This document shows, in pieces, positions 21,268-56,008 of a DNA stretch of 64,000 bases. The stretch comes from Halorubrum cibi (lineage in GTDB: Archaea > Halobacteriota > Halobacteria > Halobacteriales > Haloferacaceae). A model generated the notes under the pieces. The model saw only the letters and a list, made by a program, of their open reading frames with translations. It had not been told where the DNA came from and searched no databases. Location: NCBI RefSeq assembly GCF_900182635.1, contig NZ_FXTD01000001.1, forward strand, positions 62,001-126,000. Reading direction: 5' to 3'. Numbering within the stretch: the stretch's first letter is position 1; every line of letters begins with the position of its first letter. A program made the translations under genes and the position numbers.

Positions 21268-21870
21268 TCACTTCTCGACGTCGAGCAGGGCGACGCGCTC
21301 GTGGACGACGTCGGCGAGGTCGCCGAGGGTCGCCGCGAGCTCGCGGTCGGTGACTCCGTAGTAGCCTCGGACCGCCTCGTCGTCGTACTCGCCGAGCGTC
21401 GGCTCCGGGCTCGCGGCGAGCAGTCCTTCGACGGACGCCACAGCCGCGTCGAGATCTGCCGGAGGACGGTCCGCGCCGGCGACGTCGCCGAAGTCGGCGA
21501 CCACGAGGGCGGCACGTCGCGCTCCCGGCGAAACGCCGAGGTCGAGCGCGCGGTCGATCTGCCGACGCCCCGCGGCGTACACCAGTATCTCGACCGCGGG
21601 GTCGCGCGCGACCGCCTCGCCGCGCGCGATGGAGCGGGCGGCGAGCCGCGTCGCGAGCCGGAGGTGTGCGGCGTCGACGACGCGGTCGGCGTCGAACGCC
21701 TGGACGACCGCACCCGTCTCCTCGCGGATCGCCTCGAGATCGGCCAGGAACGCGTCGAGATCGTCGACGGCGAGAACGCCCTCGACGAGGCGGGTCTCCG
21801 GGCGCGACGCGGGGTGGTTCGGCGTCGCCGTGCGGGCGGGAGGCTCGCCCGGCTCGGACGAGCCGGTCAT
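21268..21870 (-). CDS. cgi121: KEOPS complex subunit Cgi121
   Basis: A 200-aa subunit of KEOPS, which makes the t6A modification on ANN-decoding tRNAs; Cgi121 binds the tRNA CCA end in archaea. Recognisable parts are [40 protein letters not shown] and [21 protein letters not shown] Pro/Ala-rich N-terminal extension of about 25 residues is unlike the core. It overlaps the hel308 stop by 4 nt (ATGA), so it is translated from the helicase mRNA. The neighbouring tRNA-Gln is not a t6A substrate, so that adjacency need not be functional. Confidence 0.85.
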
Positions 21871-24344
21871 CGGAAGTCACCGAGGCTGGCCTGTCCCTCG
21901 TCGTCGCCGTCGCCGCTCCCGGCGGTCGCCGCCGCGGAGGCGGATCGGTCGGCGTCGATCCCGTCCATCGAGGGGTCCTCGCGCCCGGCGTGTTCGAGGA
22001 TCCGCTCCGCAGTCCGCTCGCGGCCGCGGAGCGCGCCGAGCACGACGGCCTTCTCCGCGTCCCGGAGGTCGGATCGAGTCTCGACGCCCGCCTCGTACAG
22101 CCGGCGCGCGCGCTTTCGCCCGACGTTGCGCACGCCCGCGAGGTCGAGGAGTTGCTCGCGGACGCCGTACTCGACCCGCTTTCTGGCCCGTCGGACCGCG
22201 AGGACCGCGTCGCCGTCGACGCCGTCCACGTCGGCCGCGAGCGTTTCGGCCGCTCGGAGCAGCCACTCCGCGGTGTCGACCTTCCCGCGGATGTCGCCGG
22301 GACCGACGCCGTAGCGCTCCGCGATCCGGTCCTCGTCGACCTCGTCGGCCCAGTCCTCCAAGAGACGGGCGGTCTTGAGCGCCGCGAGCCAGTCCTCGAA
22401 ACGGACGTCCTCGTACTCCGAGGGCACGTCGCCGAGGAACTCCGTCTCGCGCTCGTAACAGACCTCGGTGTACGTCTCGCGGTCCCCCGATTTGAGATAG
22501 AGCTCGTACATGTCCGGCGTCCGGCTCACCAGGTGATACAGCCCGAGCGGGGTGATATCGGTCCCGGAGTCGCCGGCGGCATCGTCGTCGCCGGCGTCGG
22601 TCCCGCCGGAGCCTCCGTCACTGCCGCCGACCCGGCTGTACGTCCCGAATCCGGGCTCCTCGCCGTCGTCCGCCGCGCCAGCCGCGTCGGCCGCGTCGGC
22701 GATCGACCGCTCGTACTTCCCGGTGGCCGCCCCCTCGTCCGCCTCGGCGGCCGCGCACGCGTTCCGGAGGCCGTCGATCATCGTCGCCGCGCTCATCGGG
22801 TCGAGGTAGAGCCGCGAGACGGTGTGGCCGATCCCGGTCGCCGAAAGCGACTCGCTTCCGCCCTCGCGGTCGCGCTCGAGGAAGCCGTTGACCGCGAGGT
22901 ACTCGAGGACGCTGTCCGTGACCGCGGCGAGCCGGCCCGCATCGTCGGTCTGGGTGGCGTACAGCGTGTTGTCGAGGAACTCGAGGAGGCCGCCGCGCGT
23001 CGAGGCGAACCCGGAGGCGACGGTCGCGAGCACGTGGGTCCGCAGCGCGGGTTCGGCGGCCAGCTTCGATCGGACGGGCTCGGCGTCCGCCCAGACGTAC
23101 CGGTCGAACAGCTCCTCTTTCGTGTCGGCGTCGCTCGCGAGCAACACCGCCTCGCCGTACGGATCGAGCCCGGGACGCCCGGCGCGGCCGCACATCTGGT
23201 GGACCTCGAGCACGTCGAGCGGCTTCATCCCGCCGAACTCGCCGTCGTAGCGCCGCCAGTCGCGGACGACGACCCTGCGCGCGGGGGTGTTTACCCCGGC
23301 CGCGAGCGTCGGGGTCGCGGAGACGCACTTGATCAGCCGGTCGCGGAACGCGTCCTCGATCAGGCTCCGGTGGTCGGCCGCGAGCCCGGCGTGGTGGAAG
23401 GCGGACCCCGATTCGACCGCGCCGGCGAGGTCCTCGGAGGTGTCGGTGTCGGAGACGCCGCGGATCTCCTCGGCCAGCTCGCGGAGCCGGTCGCGCTCGT
23501 CACCGGTGAGCCGCGGGCCGGTCACGTCCGCGAGCTTGCGGGCCGACGACTCGGCGTTCCGCCGGGAGTTGACGAACACGAGCGAGGAGCCGCCCTGTCC
23601 GTCCTCCTCCGTGTCGAGCGCGTCCGCGACGAGCCGGGCGGTCTGCTCCTCGCCGCGGTCGACCGGCACCTCCCGTTTGCTCCCGTCATCGAAGTCGATC
23701 GCGTTGCCGAAGTGGACGCCGACGCGGAGGTCGATCGGCCGCCACTCCGACTCGACGAGCTCGGCGTCGAGCCACTCGGCGATGACGTCGGCGTTGCCGA
23801 CGGTGGCCGACAGCGCCACGGTCTGGAGGCCGGAGTTCACCTTGCGGAGCTTCGCGAGGGTGACCTCCAGAGTCGGGCCGCGGCTCGCGTCGTCGACGAG
23901 GTGGACTTCGTCGCTCACGACGCAGGTCAGGTCGTCGATCCACGGCGCGCCGTTGCGGATCAGCGAGTCGACCTTCTCCGAGGTGGCGACGATGACGTCG
24001 CGGGTCGCCAGCCACTCGCCGTCGGAGTCGTAGTTGCCGGTGGAGACGCCCACCGTGACGCCGTGCTCCTCCCACCGCTCGAACTCCGCCTTCTTCTCGC
24101 TGGCGAGCGCGCGAAGCGGGACGATGTACAGCGCCTTGCCGCCGCGCTCGATCGCCGACAGCATGGCGAGTTCGGCGATCAGCGTCTTTCCGGAGGCGGT
24201 GGGGACGGCCGCCACGAGGCTCTCGCCGTCGAGGACGCCCGCCTCGACGGCGGCCTCCTGTGGCGGGTAGAGGTCGGCGACGCCCTCGGCCTCGAGCGCC
24301 TCGCCGACGCCCGCGGGGAGCCCGGAGAGGGCGGTCGGTTGCAT
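21867..24344 (-). CDS. hel308: ATP-dependent DNA helicase Hel308
   Basis: An 825-aa Ski2-like superfamily 2 helicase that unwinds stalled forks and restrains recombination. Motif [10 protein letters not shown] (Lys53), motif [10 protein letters not shown], motif [11 protein letters not shown], motif [15 protein letters not shown] and [11 protein letters not shown], and motif [12 protein letters not shown] are all present. A C-terminal helix-hairpin-helix ([20 protein letters not shown]) and a PCNA-binding-like end (QASLGDFR) follow. It is longer than non-halophilic Hel308 because of an acidic Gly/Ser/Asp insertion at about 515-570. The ATG at 24344 has a TATA box (GTTTAAAT, 24369-24376) 28 nt upstream. 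Confidence 0.93.
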
Positions 24345-24376: not shown

Positions 24377-24430
24377 CGTCGGAACGGGGCGGAAGGGCCG
24401 GCGACGACGTTTCCCGAACACCCGGTTCGG

Positions 24431-24546
24431 CGCGCGTGAGACGAGGGGCGGAATCCCGAGGAACGCGCGCGAGGGAGCAGCGGCCGCGCCGCCGGAAACC
24501 CTCGGCAGCGCGGCCGCTGCGAGGTTGGGGAGGCGTGAGGTGCGGT
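24431..24546 (+). repeat. Modular intergenic repeat, copy A
   Basis: The 3' module is GGGGAGGCGTGAGGTGCGGT (24527-24546), identical to copies B and C. The 5' module GCGTGAG ... GAACGCGCGCGAGG is a diverged form of the B/C module. Between them lies a perfect 12-bp inverted repeat (GCAGCGGCCGCG / CGCGGCCGCTGC). It occupies the gap between hel308 and the gene at 24720 and is oriented against both. Confidence 0.8.
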
Positions 24547-24719: not shown

Positions 24720-24974
24720 CTACACCGCGTCGTCGAGGTCGTGTTCGGCGGCCATCCGCGACGCCTCCGCGGCGAACCGCTCGACCTCCTCGGCCGGCAC
24801 CTCGCCGAGCGCGTCCTCGTCGACGTCGCGTCCGGCGGTCACCCCGCCGCCCGTGACCAGCCGCTGTTCGGCCAGTTCTTTGGTGTGGACGCGCTCGCCG
24901 TCCTCGGTCGCGTACGTCAGCCGGACGAGTCCCTTCGAGTCGAACTGCCGGTCGACGAGCCAGACTGCGGTCAT
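24720..24974 (-). CDS. Small haloarchaeal protein of unknown function
   Basis: An 84-aa protein starting MTAVWLVDRQFDSKGLVRLT. A beta-rich first half (VRLTYATEDGERVHTKELAE) is followed by an acidic helical tail. It looks like a conserved haloarchaeal family, but I know no function. A TATA-like GTTTAAGG lies 30 nt upstream. Strand and codon bias support it. Confidence 0.68.
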   Translation of the reverse strand: MTAVWLVDRQFDSKGLVRLTYATEDGERVHTKELAEQRLVTGGGVTAGRDVDEDALGEVPAEEVERFAAEASRMAAEHDLDDAV

Positions 24975-28519: not shown

Positions 28520-29083
28520 ATGTCGCTGGCAGCCGACACCCGCGAGGCGGTCCGAGAGCACCCGTTCCTCCTCGACGCGCTCCGCGCGGGAGTCCTGAAC
28601 TACAGTGCGACCGCCGCGTGGCTCGTCGAGCGCGGCGGGCTCGACGGCGACGCCGACGCGGTCGCGACCGCGCTCCGCCGGTTCCGCGAGGACCTCCCGA
28701 CGTACGCGACCGCGGACCGGACCGCGAGCGTCACGATGCGGAGCGGCGTCGGGGTCGTGGGCGATGGAGCGCGGGAAGGCGACGATGCGAAGGAAGATGA
28801 CGGGACGGACCGCGACCCCCTCCTCCGGGTCGGCGGCGCGGCGGTCGTCCTCGAGGGGTCACACACCGCGCTGCTCGCGACCGGTGGGGTCGATTCCGCG
28901 GCGCTTTCGGCCGTGCTCCGCCGGCTCGACGCGGTCGACGTCGCAGTCGCGGCCGCGGGCGTCGCGGTCGCGGGAGGCGACGACGGCTCGCTCGTCGTGA
29001 TCGTGGACCGTCGCGACGGCGCGGGCGCACTGCGGGTCGTCGAGGACGCGCTGGCCGCGATCCCGGGGGTCGAAGGCGAATAG
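28520..29083 (+). CDS. Haloarchaeal conserved protein of unknown function
   Basis: A 187-aa protein starting MSLAADTREAVREHPFLLDA. The first 65 residues resemble a small helical DNA-binding-type fold (LRAGVLNYSATAAWLVERGG, then ATALRRFREDLP). An acidic low-complexity insert at about 75-95 separates it from a hydrophobic alpha-beta C-terminal half (GGAAVVLEGSHTALLATGGV) that could be an ACT-like regulatory fold. I know no function. Earlier Met codons at 28493 and further upstream exist, but the conserved-looking sequence starts at 28520. Confidence 0.68.
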   Translation: MSLAADTREAVREHPFLLDALRAGVLNYSATAAWLVERGGLDGDADAVATALRRFREDLPTYATADRTASVTMRSGVGVVGDGAREGDDAKEDDGTDRDPLLRVGGAAVVLEGSHTALLATGGVDSAALSAVLRRLDAVDVAVAAAGVAVAGGDDGSLVVIVDRRDGAGALRVVEDALAAIPGVEGE

Positions 29084-29121: not shown

Positions 29122-29214
29122 AGCGAGAAATGCGGTTGCGGTGAACCCTTCCGAAGCCTCGGTCGCGAGGCGCTACGCGTCTCCGGTCCCTCCCTGTTCG
29201 CGGGGACGCGTCGC

Positions 29215-29373
29215 ACCGCACCTCACGCCTCCCCAGCCTCGGCGCCCGCCCTCCGCTTCGCTCCGGTCGGTCGCCTCCAGCGAGGGACCTTCGGTCCCTC
29301 TGGCAGCCGGCGCGTAGCGCCGGCGACCTCGCGCGGTCGTTCGCGGCCCGGTGGGCCGCTCACGGCACGCGCC
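29215..29373 (-). repeat. Modular intergenic repeat, copy B
   Basis: Read on the minus strand: a 5' module CGTGAGCGGCC ... GGCCGCGAACG ... CGCGCGAGG near 29329-29364, then several hairpins (GCCGGCGC-TAC-GCGCCGGC near 29306-29324 and AGGGACC-GAA-GGTCCCT near 29284-29300), then the core identical to copies A and C (29215-29234). It is the longest copy, about 159 bp. It is antisense to both flanking genes. Confidence 0.8.
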
Positions 29374-29437: not shown

Positions 29438-30691
29438 ATGTCCAGAGTCACGATCGACGACGTCGAGGCCGCGGCGGCGCGGTTCGCCGACGCCGACATC
29501 GTCCAGCGCACCCCCGTCCAGCGGAGCCGGTCGCTCTCCGAGCGGTGCGGCGCGGAGGTCCGACTGAAGATGGAACACCTCCAGCGCACCGGCTCGTTCA
29601 AGCCGCGCGGCGCGTACAACGCGATCTCCCGGCTCGTGGAGTCGGACCCGTCGGCCGAGCGGGTCGTCGCCGCGAGCGCGGGAAACCACGCGCAGGGAGT
29701 CGCGCTCGCGGCAACCGCGGCGGGCCTCGACTCGACGATCGTGATGCCCGAGTCCGCCCCCGGCGCGAAGATCGAGGCCACGCGGTCGTACGGGGCCGAC
29801 GTGGTCCTCGAGGGGGCCGTCTTCGCCGAGGCGATGGCCCACGCGCGGACGCTCGTGGACGACCCCGCGACGCGGTTCGTCCACGCCTTCGACGACCCGG
29901 ACGTCGTCGCCGGACAGGGGACCATCGGGCTGGAGGTGCTCGAGCAGGCTCCCGACGTCGACACCGTGCTCGTCCCCGTCGGCGGCGGCGGGCTGGCGGG
30001 CGGGATCGCGACCGCGATAAAAGCCCGCGCGCCGGACGTGCGGGTCATTGGCGTCCAGACCGAGGGGGCCTCGACGCTCTCAGAGAGCCTCGCGGCCGGC
30101 GAACTAGTCATGCGCGAGGAGCCCGACACGATCGCCGACGGGATCGCCACCGGCGGGATGAGCGACCTCACCTTCGGCCTCCTCGAGGAGCACCTCGACG
30201 GCGTGGTGGTCGTCAGCGACGACGACGTGGCCGCCGCGATCCTGCTGCTCTTGGAGCGCGCGAAACAGATGGTCGAGGGCGCGGGCGCGACCGCCGCGGC
30301 CGCGCTCCTCGACGACGAACTCGTCTCGAAACTCGGGCTGGCCGACGAGACGGTCGTCCCGCTGCTTTGCGGCGGCAACATCGACATCACGTCGCTCCAG
30401 GAGGTGTTGACCCACGCGCTGGTCGAGCGCCACCAGCTGGTCGAACTCACCGTCCGCATCGACGACACGCCGGGGAAGATGGGCGAGATCGCGACGCTGA
30501 TCGGCGAGGAGCGCGCGAACATCCGCACCGTCCGCCACGAGCGGAGCCGCCCGGACCTCCCGGTCGGCGACGCCGACCTGGTCTTCGAGGTCGAGACGAA
30601 CGGTCCGGCTCACATGAAGCGGGTCGTCGAGGCGGTCCGCGAGGCGGGATACGGAGTTGCCTCCCGGACCGACGTCGGCTCCCGGCGGTAG
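29438..30691 (+). CDS. ilvA: Threonine ammonia-lyase (threonine dehydratase) with ACT domain
   Basis: A 417-aa fold-type II PLP enzyme converting threonine to 2-oxobutanoate, the first step to isoleucine or threonine breakdown. It shows the PLP Lys55 in TGSFKPRGAYNA, the ASAGNHAQGVALAA loop, and the phosphate-binding VPVGGGGLAGG. The C-terminal ACT-type regulatory domain lies at about 335-410 (VELTVRIDDTPGKMGEIATL). The single short regulatory domain resembles the TdcB-plus-ACT form common in archaea rather than biosynthetic IlvA with two ACT-like units. The ATG at 29438 has a TATA-like CCTTTTC about 29 nt upstream. Confidence 0.9.
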   Translation: MSRVTIDDVEAAAARFADADIVQRTPVQRSRSLSERCGAEVRLKMEHLQRTGSFKPRGAYNAISRLVESDPSAERVVAASAGNHAQGVALAATAAGLDSTIVMPESAPGAKIEATRSYGADVVLEGAVFAEAMAHARTLVDDPATRFVHAFDDPDVVAGQGTIGLEVLEQAPDVDTVLVPVGGGGLAGGIATAIKARAPDVRVIGVQTEGASTLSESLAAGELVMREEPDTIADGIATGGMSDLTFGLLEEHLDGVVVVSDDDVAAAILLLLERAKQMVEGAGATAAAALLDDELVSKLGLADETVVPLLCGGNIDITSLQEVLTHALVERHQLVELTVRIDDTPGKMGEIATLIGEERANIRTVRHERSRPDLPVGDADLVFEVETNGPAHMKRVVEAVREAGYGVASRTDVGSRR

Positions 30692-51259: not shown

Positions 51260-52644
51260 CACGGGTGATCCACACCGGCGACACCCACGTCGGGTACCAG
51301 CAGTACCACTCGCCGGTCAGACGCCAGGACTTCCTCGACGCGTTCGGGGCCGTCGTCGACGACGCGGTCGACGACGACGTCGACGCCGTCGTCCACGCGG
51401 GCGACCTCTTCCACGACCGGCGACCCGAGCTCCCCGACCTCATGGGGACGATCGCCGTCCTCCGGCGGCTCGCGGACGCCGGGATCCCCTTCCTCGCCGT
51501 CGTGGGCAACCACGAGTCGACCCGCGGGGGCCAGTGGGTCGACCTCTTCGAGCGGCTGGGGCTCGCGACCCGGCTCGGCGACGCGCCGACCGTCGTCGGC
51601 GACGTCGCCTTCTATGGGCTCGATCACGTCCCCGTCTCCCGCCGCGACGACCTCGAGTACGCGTTCGAGCCGCACGACGCCGACTACGCGGCGCTCGTCG
51701 CACACGGGCTCTTCGAGCCGTTCGCACACGCCGACTGGGACACGGAGACCGTCCTCGCCGAGAGCGACGTGGACTTCGACGCGATGCTCCTCGGCGACAA
51801 CCACACCCCCGATCGCGCCGAGGTCGCGGGGACGTGGGTCACCTATCCGGGATCGACCGAGCGCGCGAGCGCGAGCGAGCGCGAGGGACGCGGTTACAAC
51901 CTCGTGACCTTCGACGAGACGGCCGTCGGCGGCGACGACCGCGTGGAGATCCGTCGCCGCGCGCTCGACACTCGGGAGTTCGTCTTCGTACCGGTCGAAC
52001 TCGGACCCGAGGAGGGCGAGGCACGGGTCCGCGAGCGGGTCCGCGAACACGATCTCGCGGACGCCGTCGTGCTCGTCGAGATAACCGGCGAGGGCGACCC
52101 GGTCACCCCGGCCGCGATCGAGGAGTTCGCGGACGCCGAGGGCGCGCTCGTCGCGCGCGTCACCGACCGGCGGACGGTGGAGACCGACGAGGAGTTCGAC
52201 GTGAGCTTCGCCGACCCCGAGGCGGCCGTCCGCGAGCGGATCGAGGAGATGGGGCTCTCGGCGGCCGGGCTCGACGTCGACGACGCGGTCCGGTCCGACT
52301 CGATCGCCGACGCCAACGTCCGCGAGACCGTGAAGGGCCGCGTCGAGGAGCGGCTCGACGACCCCGCCGCGTTCGTCGCCGCGAACGACGGGAAAGGCGA
52401 GGGCGACGCGGAACCCGACGACCCCGAGAAGGCGTCGGAAGGCGGCGAATCGACCGATATCGACGACGCGGGCGGTGAGGACGGCGCGGACGGTGAGGAG
52501 TCGACCGAGGATGACGCGATCGACGACGAGCGGCCGATCGGGGACGACGCGCTCGACGACGAGAGCTCGACCGACGACGAAAACGAGCGATCCGACCGGT
52601 CCACGCCGGCGGACGGGCAGGTCTCAATGGAGGACTACCTGTGA
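51256..52644 (+). CDS. mre11: DNA double-strand break repair protein Mre11
   Basis: A 462-aa Mn-dependent nuclease of the Mre11-Rad50 complex. Phosphoesterase motifs: [29 protein letters not shown] and LLGDNHTPD, followed by a capping domain. A long Asp/Glu-rich low-complexity region at about 375-450 precedes the C-terminus QVSMEDYL, which resembles a PCNA-interacting peptide. It is coupled to genes on both sides by 4-nt overlaps. Confidence 0.92.
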
Positions 52645-55334
52645 GGTTCGACCGGATCCGGCTCTCGAACTTCAAGCCGTACGGCGACGCCGACCTCCGG
52701 CTCTCGGAGGGAGTCACCGTCATCCACGGGATCAACGGCAGCGGCAAGTCGTCGCTGCTCGAGGCCTGCTTCTTCGCGCTGTACGGCTCCAAGGCGCTCG
52801 AGGGGACCCTCGAGGACGTGATCACGAACGGCGAGGAAGAGACGGAGATCGACCTCTGGTTCACCCACGACGGGACCTCCTATCACGTCGAGCGACGGCT
52901 CCGCCGGTACGACGACCGCGTCGATCACGACTGCGCCCTCGAGACCACCGCCGGCGGCGACGTGACGCGCGACGGCGCGACGGCGGTGAGGCGGTTCGTC
53001 ACCGAACTGCTCAGGATGGACGCCGACGCGTTCGTAAACTGCGCGTACGTCCGGCAGGGCGAGGTGAACGCGCTCATCAACGCCACGCCGAGCCAGCGGC
53101 AGGACGTGATCGACGACCTCCTCCAGCTGGGCAAACTCGAGGAGTACCGTGAGCGCGCGGGCGACGCCCGCCTGGGCGTGGAGGACGTGTTGAACGCGAA
53201 ACGGGCAGTCCTCGAGGAGAAGGAGGCGCGGATCGATCGGAAGGAGGACGAGAACCTCCACGAGCGGCTCAACGGGCTCGAGAGCGACCTCGCCGAGGTG
53301 ACCGACGAGATCGAGCGTTACGAGGCCCAGCGCGATCGCGCGAAGGAGACGCGTGCGGAGGCGGCCGAGGCGCTTTCGGCCCACGAGGAGAAGCGAGCCG
53401 AGCTCGCGGCGGTCGAGGAGGACGTCGAATCGATCGAGACGGCGATCCGGGAGACGGAGCGCGAACGCGAGGGGCATCGGGAGGCGATCCGCGAGACCCG
53501 CGAGCGGATCGAGGAGGTCGAATCAGCGATCGACGACCGGCTCGACGCGGCCGGGCTCGAGGTCGCGACCGGCGACGCGATAGCGGAGCGCCGAGCGGAA
53601 CTCGACGACCGGGAGGCGGAGGTCCGGGAGGAACTCGACGATCGACGGGTGAACGCCGAGGCGTTCCGCAACCAGGCGACGAACCTCGCAACGAAGGCGG
53701 ACGACCTCGCGGAGCGCGCCGCCGAGCTCGAGGAGGAGGCCGACGACCTCGCCGAGGCGGCCGACGCTGCCGAACGGGAGGCCGACGAGCGGGAGGCCTC
53801 GATCGAGGAGCTTCGCGAGGAGGCCGAGACGCTCCGCGATCGGTTCGAGACGGCCGACGTCGACGTCGATCGAGACGACGCGGCGGAGCGGCGCGAGACG
53901 CTTCGGGAGCGACGCGGCGAGGTCCGCGAGCGGATCGCGGAGCTGTCCGCGGAGTTGAAGAACGCCCGCGAGCGCGTCGCGGAGGCCGAGGAGCTGCTCG
54001 CCGCCGGCAAGTGCCCCGAATGCGGTCAGCCGGTCGAGGACTCCCCGCACGCGACGGGGATCGAGGCGGACCGCGAGCGAGTCACGGAACTCGAAGCGGA
54101 TCTGGCGTCCGCTCGCGAGCGTGCGAGCGACCTCGACGACCGGCTCGAGGAAGCCTCCGCGCTCGCCGACGCCGCCGAGCGACTCTCGGAGATCGACGAG
54201 ACGATCGCGATGCTCGAGGAACGAGTCGCCGAGAAGCGCGAGGCGGCGACTGAGAAGCGCGAGGCGGCGACCGAGAAGCGCGAGGCGGCGACCGAGAAAC
54301 GCCGGGAGGCCGAGTCGACGCGGGAGGTCGCCGAGGAGAAACGCGAGGAAGCGACGGAGACCGGAGAGCGGATCGAGGAGTCGGAGGACGCGCTCGACCG
54401 CGTCGCGGACGCTCGCGAGTCGATCGACGAAGTCGAGGAGCGGCTCGCGGAGATCGACGAGCTGGAGGCGGAGATCGAGCGCCGGCGCGAGAAGCGCGCG
54501 GATCTGGAGGCCGTGAACGACGAGCGGCGCGACCGACTCGCGGACAAACGCGCCCGGCGCGACGAACTTCGCGAGGTCGTCGACGAGGAGGCAGTCGAGG
54601 CGGCGAAGAAACGGAAGGAGGACGCCGAGGACTATCTCGAGAAGGTCGTCGAGGAACTCGACGGACTCGACGACCGGCGGACCGAACTCCAGAACGCGAT
54701 CGGTGGGGTACGCGGCGAGATAGAGGCGCTGGAGGATCTCCGCGAGGAGCGCGAGGCGCTCGCCGAGACGGTCGGGGCGCTCGAGTCGCTTCACGAGGAG
54801 ACGACGGAGCTGGAGGCGACGTACGGCGACCTCCGGGCGGAGCTCCGCCAGCGCAACGTCCGGGAGCTCGAGCGCACGCTCAACGAGACGTTCGAGCTGG
54901 TGTACGGCAACGACGCCTACTCGCACATCGAGCTCGACGGCGAGTACGCGCTCACGGTCTACCAGAAGGACGGGGAGGCGCTCGACCCCGAGCAGCTCTC
55001 CGGCGGCGAGCGGGCGCTTTTCAACCTCTCGCTGCGCTGTGCGATCTACCGGCTGCTCGCGGAGGGGATAGAGGGGGCCGCACCGACCCCCCCGCTCATC
55101 CTCGATGAGCCGACCGTCTTCCTCGATTCAGGACACGTCTCCCGGCTCGTCGACCTCGTCGAGGAGATGCGCGGGTTCGGCGTGAAACAGATCGTGATCG
55201 TGAGCCACGACGACGAGCTGGTCGGGGCCGCGGACGAGCTCGTGACCGTCGAGAAGGACCCGCGGACGAACCGGTCGACGGTCACCCGGGAGGACGCCGC
55301 CGGGATCGACGTCGCGTCGCTCGCGGACGACTGA
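52641..55334 (+). CDS. rad50: DNA double-strand break repair ATPase Rad50
   Basis: An 897-aa SMC-like ATPase. Walker [21 protein letters not shown] near residue 37, a long antiparallel coiled coil, the zinc hook [15 protein letters not shown] near the middle (CPEC), the signature [14 protein letters not shown] and Walker [13 protein letters not shown]. The second coiled-coil arm contains three perfect KREAATE-type heptads. The GTG start at 52641 overlaps the mre11 stop by 4 nt (GTGA), so no other start is likely. Length is normal for archaeal Rad50. Confidence 0.94.
54231..54310 (+). repeat. 21-bp in-frame tandem repeat in rad50
   Basis: GAGAAGCGCGAGGCGGCGAC (first 20 nt) repeats at 54231, 54252 and 54273, with a degenerate fourth unit at 54294. 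Each unit is exactly seven codons, so copy-number change would keep the coiled-coil heptad phase. Confidence 0.85.
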
Positions 55335-55390
55335 GCTCGTCGGGTACCGGTTTTCGGGTATCCCGGTTCCCATACGTCCGCGGTGGCGCG

Positions 55391-55503
55391 CGCCCGTGAG
55401 CGGCCGGTGGCCGCGAACGGCTCGCGCGAGGGAGGTCGAAGGCGGCCCGCCGACGTATCCGGCGGGTCGCCGAGGCCGAGGCTGGGGAGGCGTGAGGTGC
55501 GGT
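55391..55503 (+). repeat. Modular intergenic repeat, copy C
   Basis: 5' module CGTGAGCGGCC-GGT-GGCCGCGAACG followed by CTCGCGCGAGG (55395-55431), a central stem CCCGCCG-ACGTATC-CGGCGGG, then the core GGGGAGGCGTGAGGTGCGGT at 55484-55503. It lies between the convergent ends of rad50 and the gene at 55550. The bases just after it (55503-55535) hold a small GGTCAGCGGTCGG-type tandem repeat. No gene is seen in the 215-bp gap. Confidence 0.8.
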
Positions 55504-55549: not shown

Positions 55550-56008
55550 CTACGACTCGTCGTCCACGGTCTCCGCGCTCTCCACGTCCCCGCGCAGCAG
55601 TCGCACCGCCGCCTCGGCAGTCGGCGTCGTCGCGTACCCTCGGCGGCCGCCGACGTCGACCTCCTCGATCAGTTCGGCGACGCGGAACTCCGCGAGCCGG
55701 CCGTGGAGGTCGGACTCGCACATGTCGTAGGCGTCCATGACTTCGACGACCGACAGCGGTCCGCGGTCGACGAGGTCGATCAGGAGCCCGAGCGCCCGGT
55801 CGTCGGGAGTCGCCCGGATCGTCCGCCGGACGGGCTCCGGAACACCCGCCGCGGCGGTCGCGAGCGACGACTCCCCCTCGACCGCCTCGAGGTCGGCGTT
55901 CTCGACGTACCGCTCCTCGCCCGTCTCCGGGTCGCGGACCCGGCTCGACTCCCCGGACCGTTTCACGAGGAGGTACGTGTCGCCGTCCGCGTCTCGAACC
56001 GTTCGCAT
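55550..56008 (-). CDS. Haloarchaeal conserved protein with winged-helix-like part (DUF7346-like)
   Basis: A 152-aa protein. The N-terminus is a beta-rich segment (MRTVRDADGDTYLLVKRSGE, VRDPETGEERYVENADLE) that recalls a small chromatin- or RNA-binding fold. The C-terminal part (LLIDLVDRGPLSVVEVMDAY, DLHGRLAEFRVAELIEEVDV, GRRGYATTPTAEAAV) reads as a winged helix. It is a haloarchaeal family; the DUF number is tentative. Function is unknown but DNA binding is plausible. ATG 56008 gives the conserved start. Confidence 0.75.
   Translation of the reverse strand: MRTVRDADGDTYLLVKRSGESSRVRDPETGEERYVENADLEAVEGESSLATAAAGVPEPVRRTIRATPDDRALGLLIDLVDRGPLSVVEVMDAYDMCESDLHGRLAEFRVAELIEEVDVGGRRGYATTPTAEAAVRLLRGDVESAETVDDES

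Follow-up and report, generated by a model that had tools for sequence, protein, structure and literature searches.

A modular family of structured, probably RNA-like, intergenic repeats in haloarchaea

A 20-nt sequence present three times in the analysed stretch of Halorubrum cibi DNA (64,000 nucleotides, hereafter the window) was found to belong to a directional, modular element that lies between genes and folds into several hairpins. Our best explanation, to which we give a probability of about 0.5, is a non-coding intergenic haloarchaeal family in which selection acts on the single-stranded fold of the plus strand, most probably in RNA form, at gene ends. The element was found in every Halorubrum genome scanned and recurred in distant haloarchaeal genera. 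Its helices, including unusual mismatch-rich ones, were kept by paired substitutions, and hundreds of natural variants make the structure solvable by comparison. It also marks some rearrangement breakpoints. To our knowledge, few high-copy structured repeat families have been described for archaea.

Anatomy of the element

The exact 20-mer occurred at 24527-24546 (+), 29215-29234 (-), and 55484-55503 (+), the places given in an earlier sequence-only reading of this DNA. No other site with up to 3 mismatches was present in the window, and 100 shuffles gave no match. The flanks of all three copies showed GAGGCT or GAGGTT directly before the 20-mer and, on the 5' side of the same strand, a hairpin ending in CGCGAGG, both as that reading had described. 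The CGTGAG...GAACG form it assigned to this hairpin was present but merely represented one allele of hairpin 1 in the family; the GA/GA internal loop of hairpin 1 and the linker GAGGGA were constant, whereas the paired bases varied. Its picture of two conserved ends around a variable middle was refined in that the middle is a second hairpin. The distance from the CGCGAGG end to the core was about 53 nt in copies 1 and 3 and about 94 nt in copy 2; the latter carries a 51-nt double-hairpin insert. All three window copies were short forms of the element, with the following features.

24430-24546 (+), copy 1, 5' domain, flanked by minus-strand genes at 21867-24344 and 24720-24974
24430-24470 (+), copy 1 hairpin 1, from sequence
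24471-24476 (+), copy 1 linker GAGGGA, from sequence
24477-24520 (+), copy 1 hairpin 2, from sequence and comparison with the ortholog in genome G019
24521-24546 (+), copy 1 core, GAGGTT plus the 20-mer, exact match
29215-29370 (-), copy 2, 5' domain, between plus-strand genes 28520-29083 and 29438-30691
29331-29370 (-), copy 2 hairpin 1, from sequence
29276-29326 (-), copy 2, double-hairpin module of 51 nt that follows GAGG as an insertion, without counterpart in the orthologous copy in L113
29241-29275 (-), copy 2 hairpin 2, from sequence and ortholog comparison
29215-29240 (-), copy 2 core, GAGGCT plus the 20-mer, exact match
29139-29166 (-), approximate, copy 2 likely 3'-tail remnant GGCTTCGGAAGGGTTCACCGC (family form GGCTTTGGnGGTGTTCACCGC), from sequence
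55382-55503 (+), copy 3, complete 5' domain, downstream of a rad50-like gene (52641-55334, +), with a convergent gene on its other side (55550-56008, -); from sequence, the orthologous site being occupied in many species
55388-55427 (+), copy 3 hairpin 1, GCGCG-C-CCGT-GA-GCGGCC-ggt-GGCCGC-GA-ACGG-CT-CGCGC, from sequence, arm co-variation, and fold
55428-55433 (+), copy 3 linker GAGGGA, invariant alignment columns
55434-55477 (+), copy 3 hairpin 2, from sequence and arm co-variation
55478-55503 (+), copy 3 invariant core GAGGCTGGGGAGGCGTGAGGTGCGGT, which includes the reported 20-mer, from exact match and alignment

Reading copies across the genome gave the order hairpin 1, GAGGGA, hairpin 2, core GAGGYTGGGGAGGCGTGAGG, and often a 3' domain, with the GAGGGA linker and the core as the invariant parts, purine-rich and single-stranded. 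The element starts near GGTGGC or GGTCGGC. Hairpin 1 consists of a lower stem, a C or CY bulge, a short stem, the GA/GA internal loop, and an upper stem, often capped by a C-GNA-G loop. In many copies the 3' part comprises a G/T-rich spacer followed by a large hairpin closed by AAAGGGGCAG...CTGGGGCTTTGG, in which G-tracts face each other, and then a tail near GTGTTCACCGC that is tandemly repeated in some copies. Wherever tail and 3'-domain motifs lay near a core, they were on its strand. About a quarter of the copies in the window's genome (G000) belonged to a long form, distinguished by additional conserved sequence at its outer ends, and these ends co-occurred (20 copies with both, 53 with neither, 8 with one only). 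Element size ranged from about 120 to over 400 nt.

Further units were seen in and around the elements. The tail unit GGCTGGGGCTTTGGnGGTGTTC or its relatives stood in two or three tandem units downstream in L190, L001, L060, L206, and L187. The double-hairpin module of copy 2 (GCCGGCGGC..GCCGGCTGCCAGAG..CTCGCTG) was also present in L010, L014, L053, L061, L065, L067, and others, and is a separate unit with several insertion positions within elements; comparison of L010 with L018 showed it between two GTCGC sequences, perhaps a 5-nt duplication. Another repeat, CCACCTTTTTcatcgtcgggt...CCGTCGGTGAACCGCTCGCTTCGCTCGCGGATGCTCACTACAG, abutted the long form upstream of L016, L028, L048, L053, L058, L065, and L067; part of it occurred alone, and the GTGAACCGC motif was also found far from any core on contig C1 of G000. 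Long G/T-rich runs of short period, such as GTGCGGCGGTGCGG, followed some cores (downstream of the core in L022; L093). In other genera (Haloparvum, Halorussus, Halosimplex) the 3' domain had a conserved apex, CCTATC-stem-GGGCnGTGnGGAGAG-stem-GATATGTCG (L187, L200, L206, L224).

Copy number, turnover, and gene context

The genome of the window contained 81 places within 3 mismatches of the 20-mer, as against none for a reversed-pattern control. By their context, about 75-80 of these are genuine copies; a few 3-mismatch matches (for example L036-, L071, and L072) appear to reflect chance or decay. Confinement of the core to three places, which the sequence-only reading had set against its own proposal, was excluded by these roughly 80 copies. 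The search of relatives that it had recommended gave 6-125 copies in each of 22 of 22 genomes of the same genus, and most related species held dozens to over 100. A stricter two-module pattern, scanned across the order, matched all 32 same-genus genomes and in total 78 of 392 genomes from 16 of 95 genera, with up to 165 copies; the control gave 0 in all 392. The distribution over genera was patchy. Matches included many Halorubrum species, Haloparvum sedimenti, Halorussus ruber, Halorussus salinisoli, Halosimplex pelagicum, and Halobellus captivus, and the architecture could be read likewise in those contigs of other genera. Forward and reverse copies were similar in number in most genomes; an apparent strand bias along half of the chromosome of G019 was an artefact of how the listing was divided and was discarded.

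Presence at individual sites differed between species, so slow spread or loss is real, and the element-free orthologous sites that had been proposed as a check do exist. Downstream of the rad50-like gene, the element stood at the same place and in the same orientation in many species and was absent in others. At this site in four close species, the element was 92-94% identical and coding DNA 88-94%, and identity in the adjacent spacer was mostly at chance (0.21-0.38, with one pair at 0.62). Comparison of G000 with G019 over stretches of 446 and 400 kb revealed seven shared sites and four clean G019-only sites. Core identity at the shared sites was 0.81-1.00 in six of the seven, and hairpins were sometimes replaced as blocks; the G019 ortholog of window copy 1 kept core and hairpin 1 and showed paired changes in hairpin 2. 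This pattern fits per-site selection, gene conversion between copies, or both, and such conversion could leave a signal that resembles purifying selection. Breaks in collinearity between G000 and G019 coincided with three G000 copies (contig C1 near 54051, 117483, which is window position 55484, and 156546), suggesting recombination between copies of the element.

No copy overlapped a called gene under a simple codon model, and no known annotated family was found for the element; these results bear on the other outcome set against the proposal, that the core belonged to a coding gene or a known element. Convergent gene pairs were enriched and divergent pairs depleted among element sites (101 convergent, 121 tandem, and 32 divergent, where all gene pairs divide about 21/58/21%; chi-square p about 1e-12). 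An antisense bias in tandem contexts of G000 (26 antisense to 10 sense) was dropped, since the wider set gave 64 antisense and 57 sense.

Selected folding and its competing explanations

Each hairpin arm paired far better with its own partner than with the arms of other copies (-30.1 versus -21.3, -24.1 versus -12.8, and -29.8 versus -20.3 kcal/mol for hairpins 1 to 3; z -28 to -36), which indicates that sequences vary and pairing is kept. In genomes of other genera, hairpin 2 often read GAG-X-A-Y-CGC ... GAG-X'-A-Y'-CGC, with three purine mismatches (A.G, A.A, and G.A) between the X/Y pairs. X:Y' and Y:X' were Watson-Crick in 96 of 98 positions of the hairpin 2 helix (shuffle maximum 50), and the same motif in the 3' domain gave 169 of 176 (shuffle maximum 149); these counts take the copies as independent, kinship being ignored, although the effect is large and distinct alleles are many. 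Compensatory co-variation of helices, by which structured non-coding RNAs are recognised, was therefore found in this family. An RNAalifold consensus on a MAFFT alignment was poor because the stems differ in length. It also suggested that the 5' end pairs with the core over a long range; this pairing lacked clear co-variation and competed with the base of hairpin 1, so we do not claim it.

The plus strand had the lower folding free energy in 268 of 271 copies (for the window copy, fold z -2.46 on the plus and -1.03 on the minus strand). GNA triloops were found on the plus strand in 157 of 277 cases and the mirror type in 15, and isolated non-Watson-Crick pairs were G.T in 80 and A.C in 48 cases (p 0.006, with copies again taken as independent). 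Plus-strand stability, GNA triloops, and the G.T excess together indicate that it is the plus strand that functions, in single-stranded form. In DNA, too, C(GNA)G triloops and sheared GA pairs are very stable, so these features suit RNA and single-stranded DNA alike; on general grounds we infer RNA. The earlier suggestion of a structured RNA family was thereby strongly supported as to structure, through co-variation in three hairpins and strand-specific features, and RNA is its probable form.

As an RNA, the element would be transcribed either from a promoter of its own or through read-through of its 5' neighbour, and the transcript would fold into a multi-hairpin structure and be bound by protein. 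It may then serve a REP- or BOX-like function where genes end, in 3'-end protection, termination, or insulation. On this view, duplication, conversion, and loss turn the copies over slowly, and whole hairpins are exchanged among them. About 38% of copies have a 5' neighbour oriented away from them, so read-through alone cannot yield the sense transcript and a 3'-UTR role alone cannot explain all copies. No conserved promoter was found upstream of the copies, where TATA-like sequences were infrequent and not positioned. A more ambitious form of the RNA reading, which we put forward tentatively, is that of large structured RNAs forming an undescribed archaeal class. As many as about 165 loci in a genome, diverged but each under constraint, would encode them; they would form ribonucleoproteins and perhaps spread selfishly, as RNA-like elements that need no known transposase or reverse transcriptase.

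The main alternative to an RNA-like repeat is that the folded single strand is DNA: a non-autonomous mobile element whose structure would be recognised by a trans-acting recombinase or transposase. The strand bias and the GNA/GA motifs suit it too, as do the multicopy, intergenic, and patchy occurrence, the element-free sites, the apparently recent full-length duplicates L010 and L018, and the long subtype, whose outer ends co-occur and are weakly similar in inverted orientation and whose 5' boundary is sharp. Against it, no Y1 transposase (IS200/IS605, RAYT) was detected in the copy-rich genomes G000, G019, G104, and G204, and no reverse transcriptase (PF00078) in 14 genomes, which removes the two best-known mobility routes; the latter result also speaks against a group II intron or retroelement RNA in those genomes. 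Viral contigs and plasmid and phage collections gave no match, and the element was retained at orthologous sites whose flanks were gone. Terminal inverted repeats were not visible in the common form, the weak end symmetry being limited to the long subtype, and the check for target-site duplications that had been proposed gave no clean one, the G019-only sites having flanks too diverged for one to be read. The idea of a mobile miniature element thus held as to multiple copies and variable site presence, but classical MITE-type mobility went without support. We regard mobile DNA as rather unlikely.

A chromosomal DNA site (for a nucleoid protein, a topoisomerase, or recombination), kept uniform in a polyploid archaeon by gene conversion and with folding as a secondary property, appears improbable. 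The three copies at collinearity breaks, the block replacement of hairpins between orthologs with the core unchanged, and the REP-like preference for gene ends accord with such a site; however, compensating changes in non-canonical helices and strand-specific loops are unexpected for a duplex binding site, and the balanced forward and reverse counts exclude a simple polar signal. Chance similarity or a protein-coding gene fragment can practically be dismissed: chance hairpins are common in high G+C sequence, as the shuffle energies reflect, but control matches were zero in G000 and in the 392-genome scan, shuffle matches were zero, no called gene was overlapped, and copy number alone refutes coincidence, which the sequence-only reading had also disfavoured.

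Comparison with known families

The Rfam 15 covariance models gave no match, with weak similarities to C4, CC1840, and P11 far below their gathering scores. Literature matches to the core sequence were unrelated, and the literature covered, which left subscription papers and preprints outside its scope, held no description, in line with the earlier reading, which named no described family. The elements thus probably constitute an undescribed family of structured RNA-like repeats.

The haloarchaeal RNAs associated with IS200/IS605 (RF02656 and RF02657, PMC12558985) are likewise structured RNAs linked to repeated elements; our element differs in having no Rfam match and no adjacent transposase gene identified, its neighbours being unannotated. 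With the MITEs of bacteria and archaea (PMC10969869) it shares short, non-coding, dispersed copies and site polymorphism between species, but it shows no clear terminal inverted repeats in its common form and no target-site duplication, and its interior is structurally constrained. REP elements and BIMEs (PMC3733652) are, like it, extragenic palindromes in many copies that are depleted from divergent promoter regions, and our element was extragenic and favoured gene 3' ends. REPs are single palindromes of 20-40 bp in GTAG and CGTC families (PMC3733652), whereas the present element folds into several hairpins over a length of about 120 to more than 400 nt, lacks a constant tag, with CGTC at the start of some copies only, and has no Y1 transposase in G000; it is thus REP-like in kind, yet fails the tests of size, tag, and Y1. 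The BOX elements of Streptococcus pneumoniae (PMC3049150) also resemble it: they are intergenic, numerous, species-restricted, and slow to turn over, with extensive secondary structure, and many intergenic copies built from modular internal units were found here as well. BOX elements are expressed (PMC3049150), and ours is known from sequence alone. The likeness is one of kind, not homology, and no sequence relation is claimed: the present element is archaeal, spans several haloarchaeal genera, and combines a larger invariant single-stranded core with non-canonical co-varying helices.
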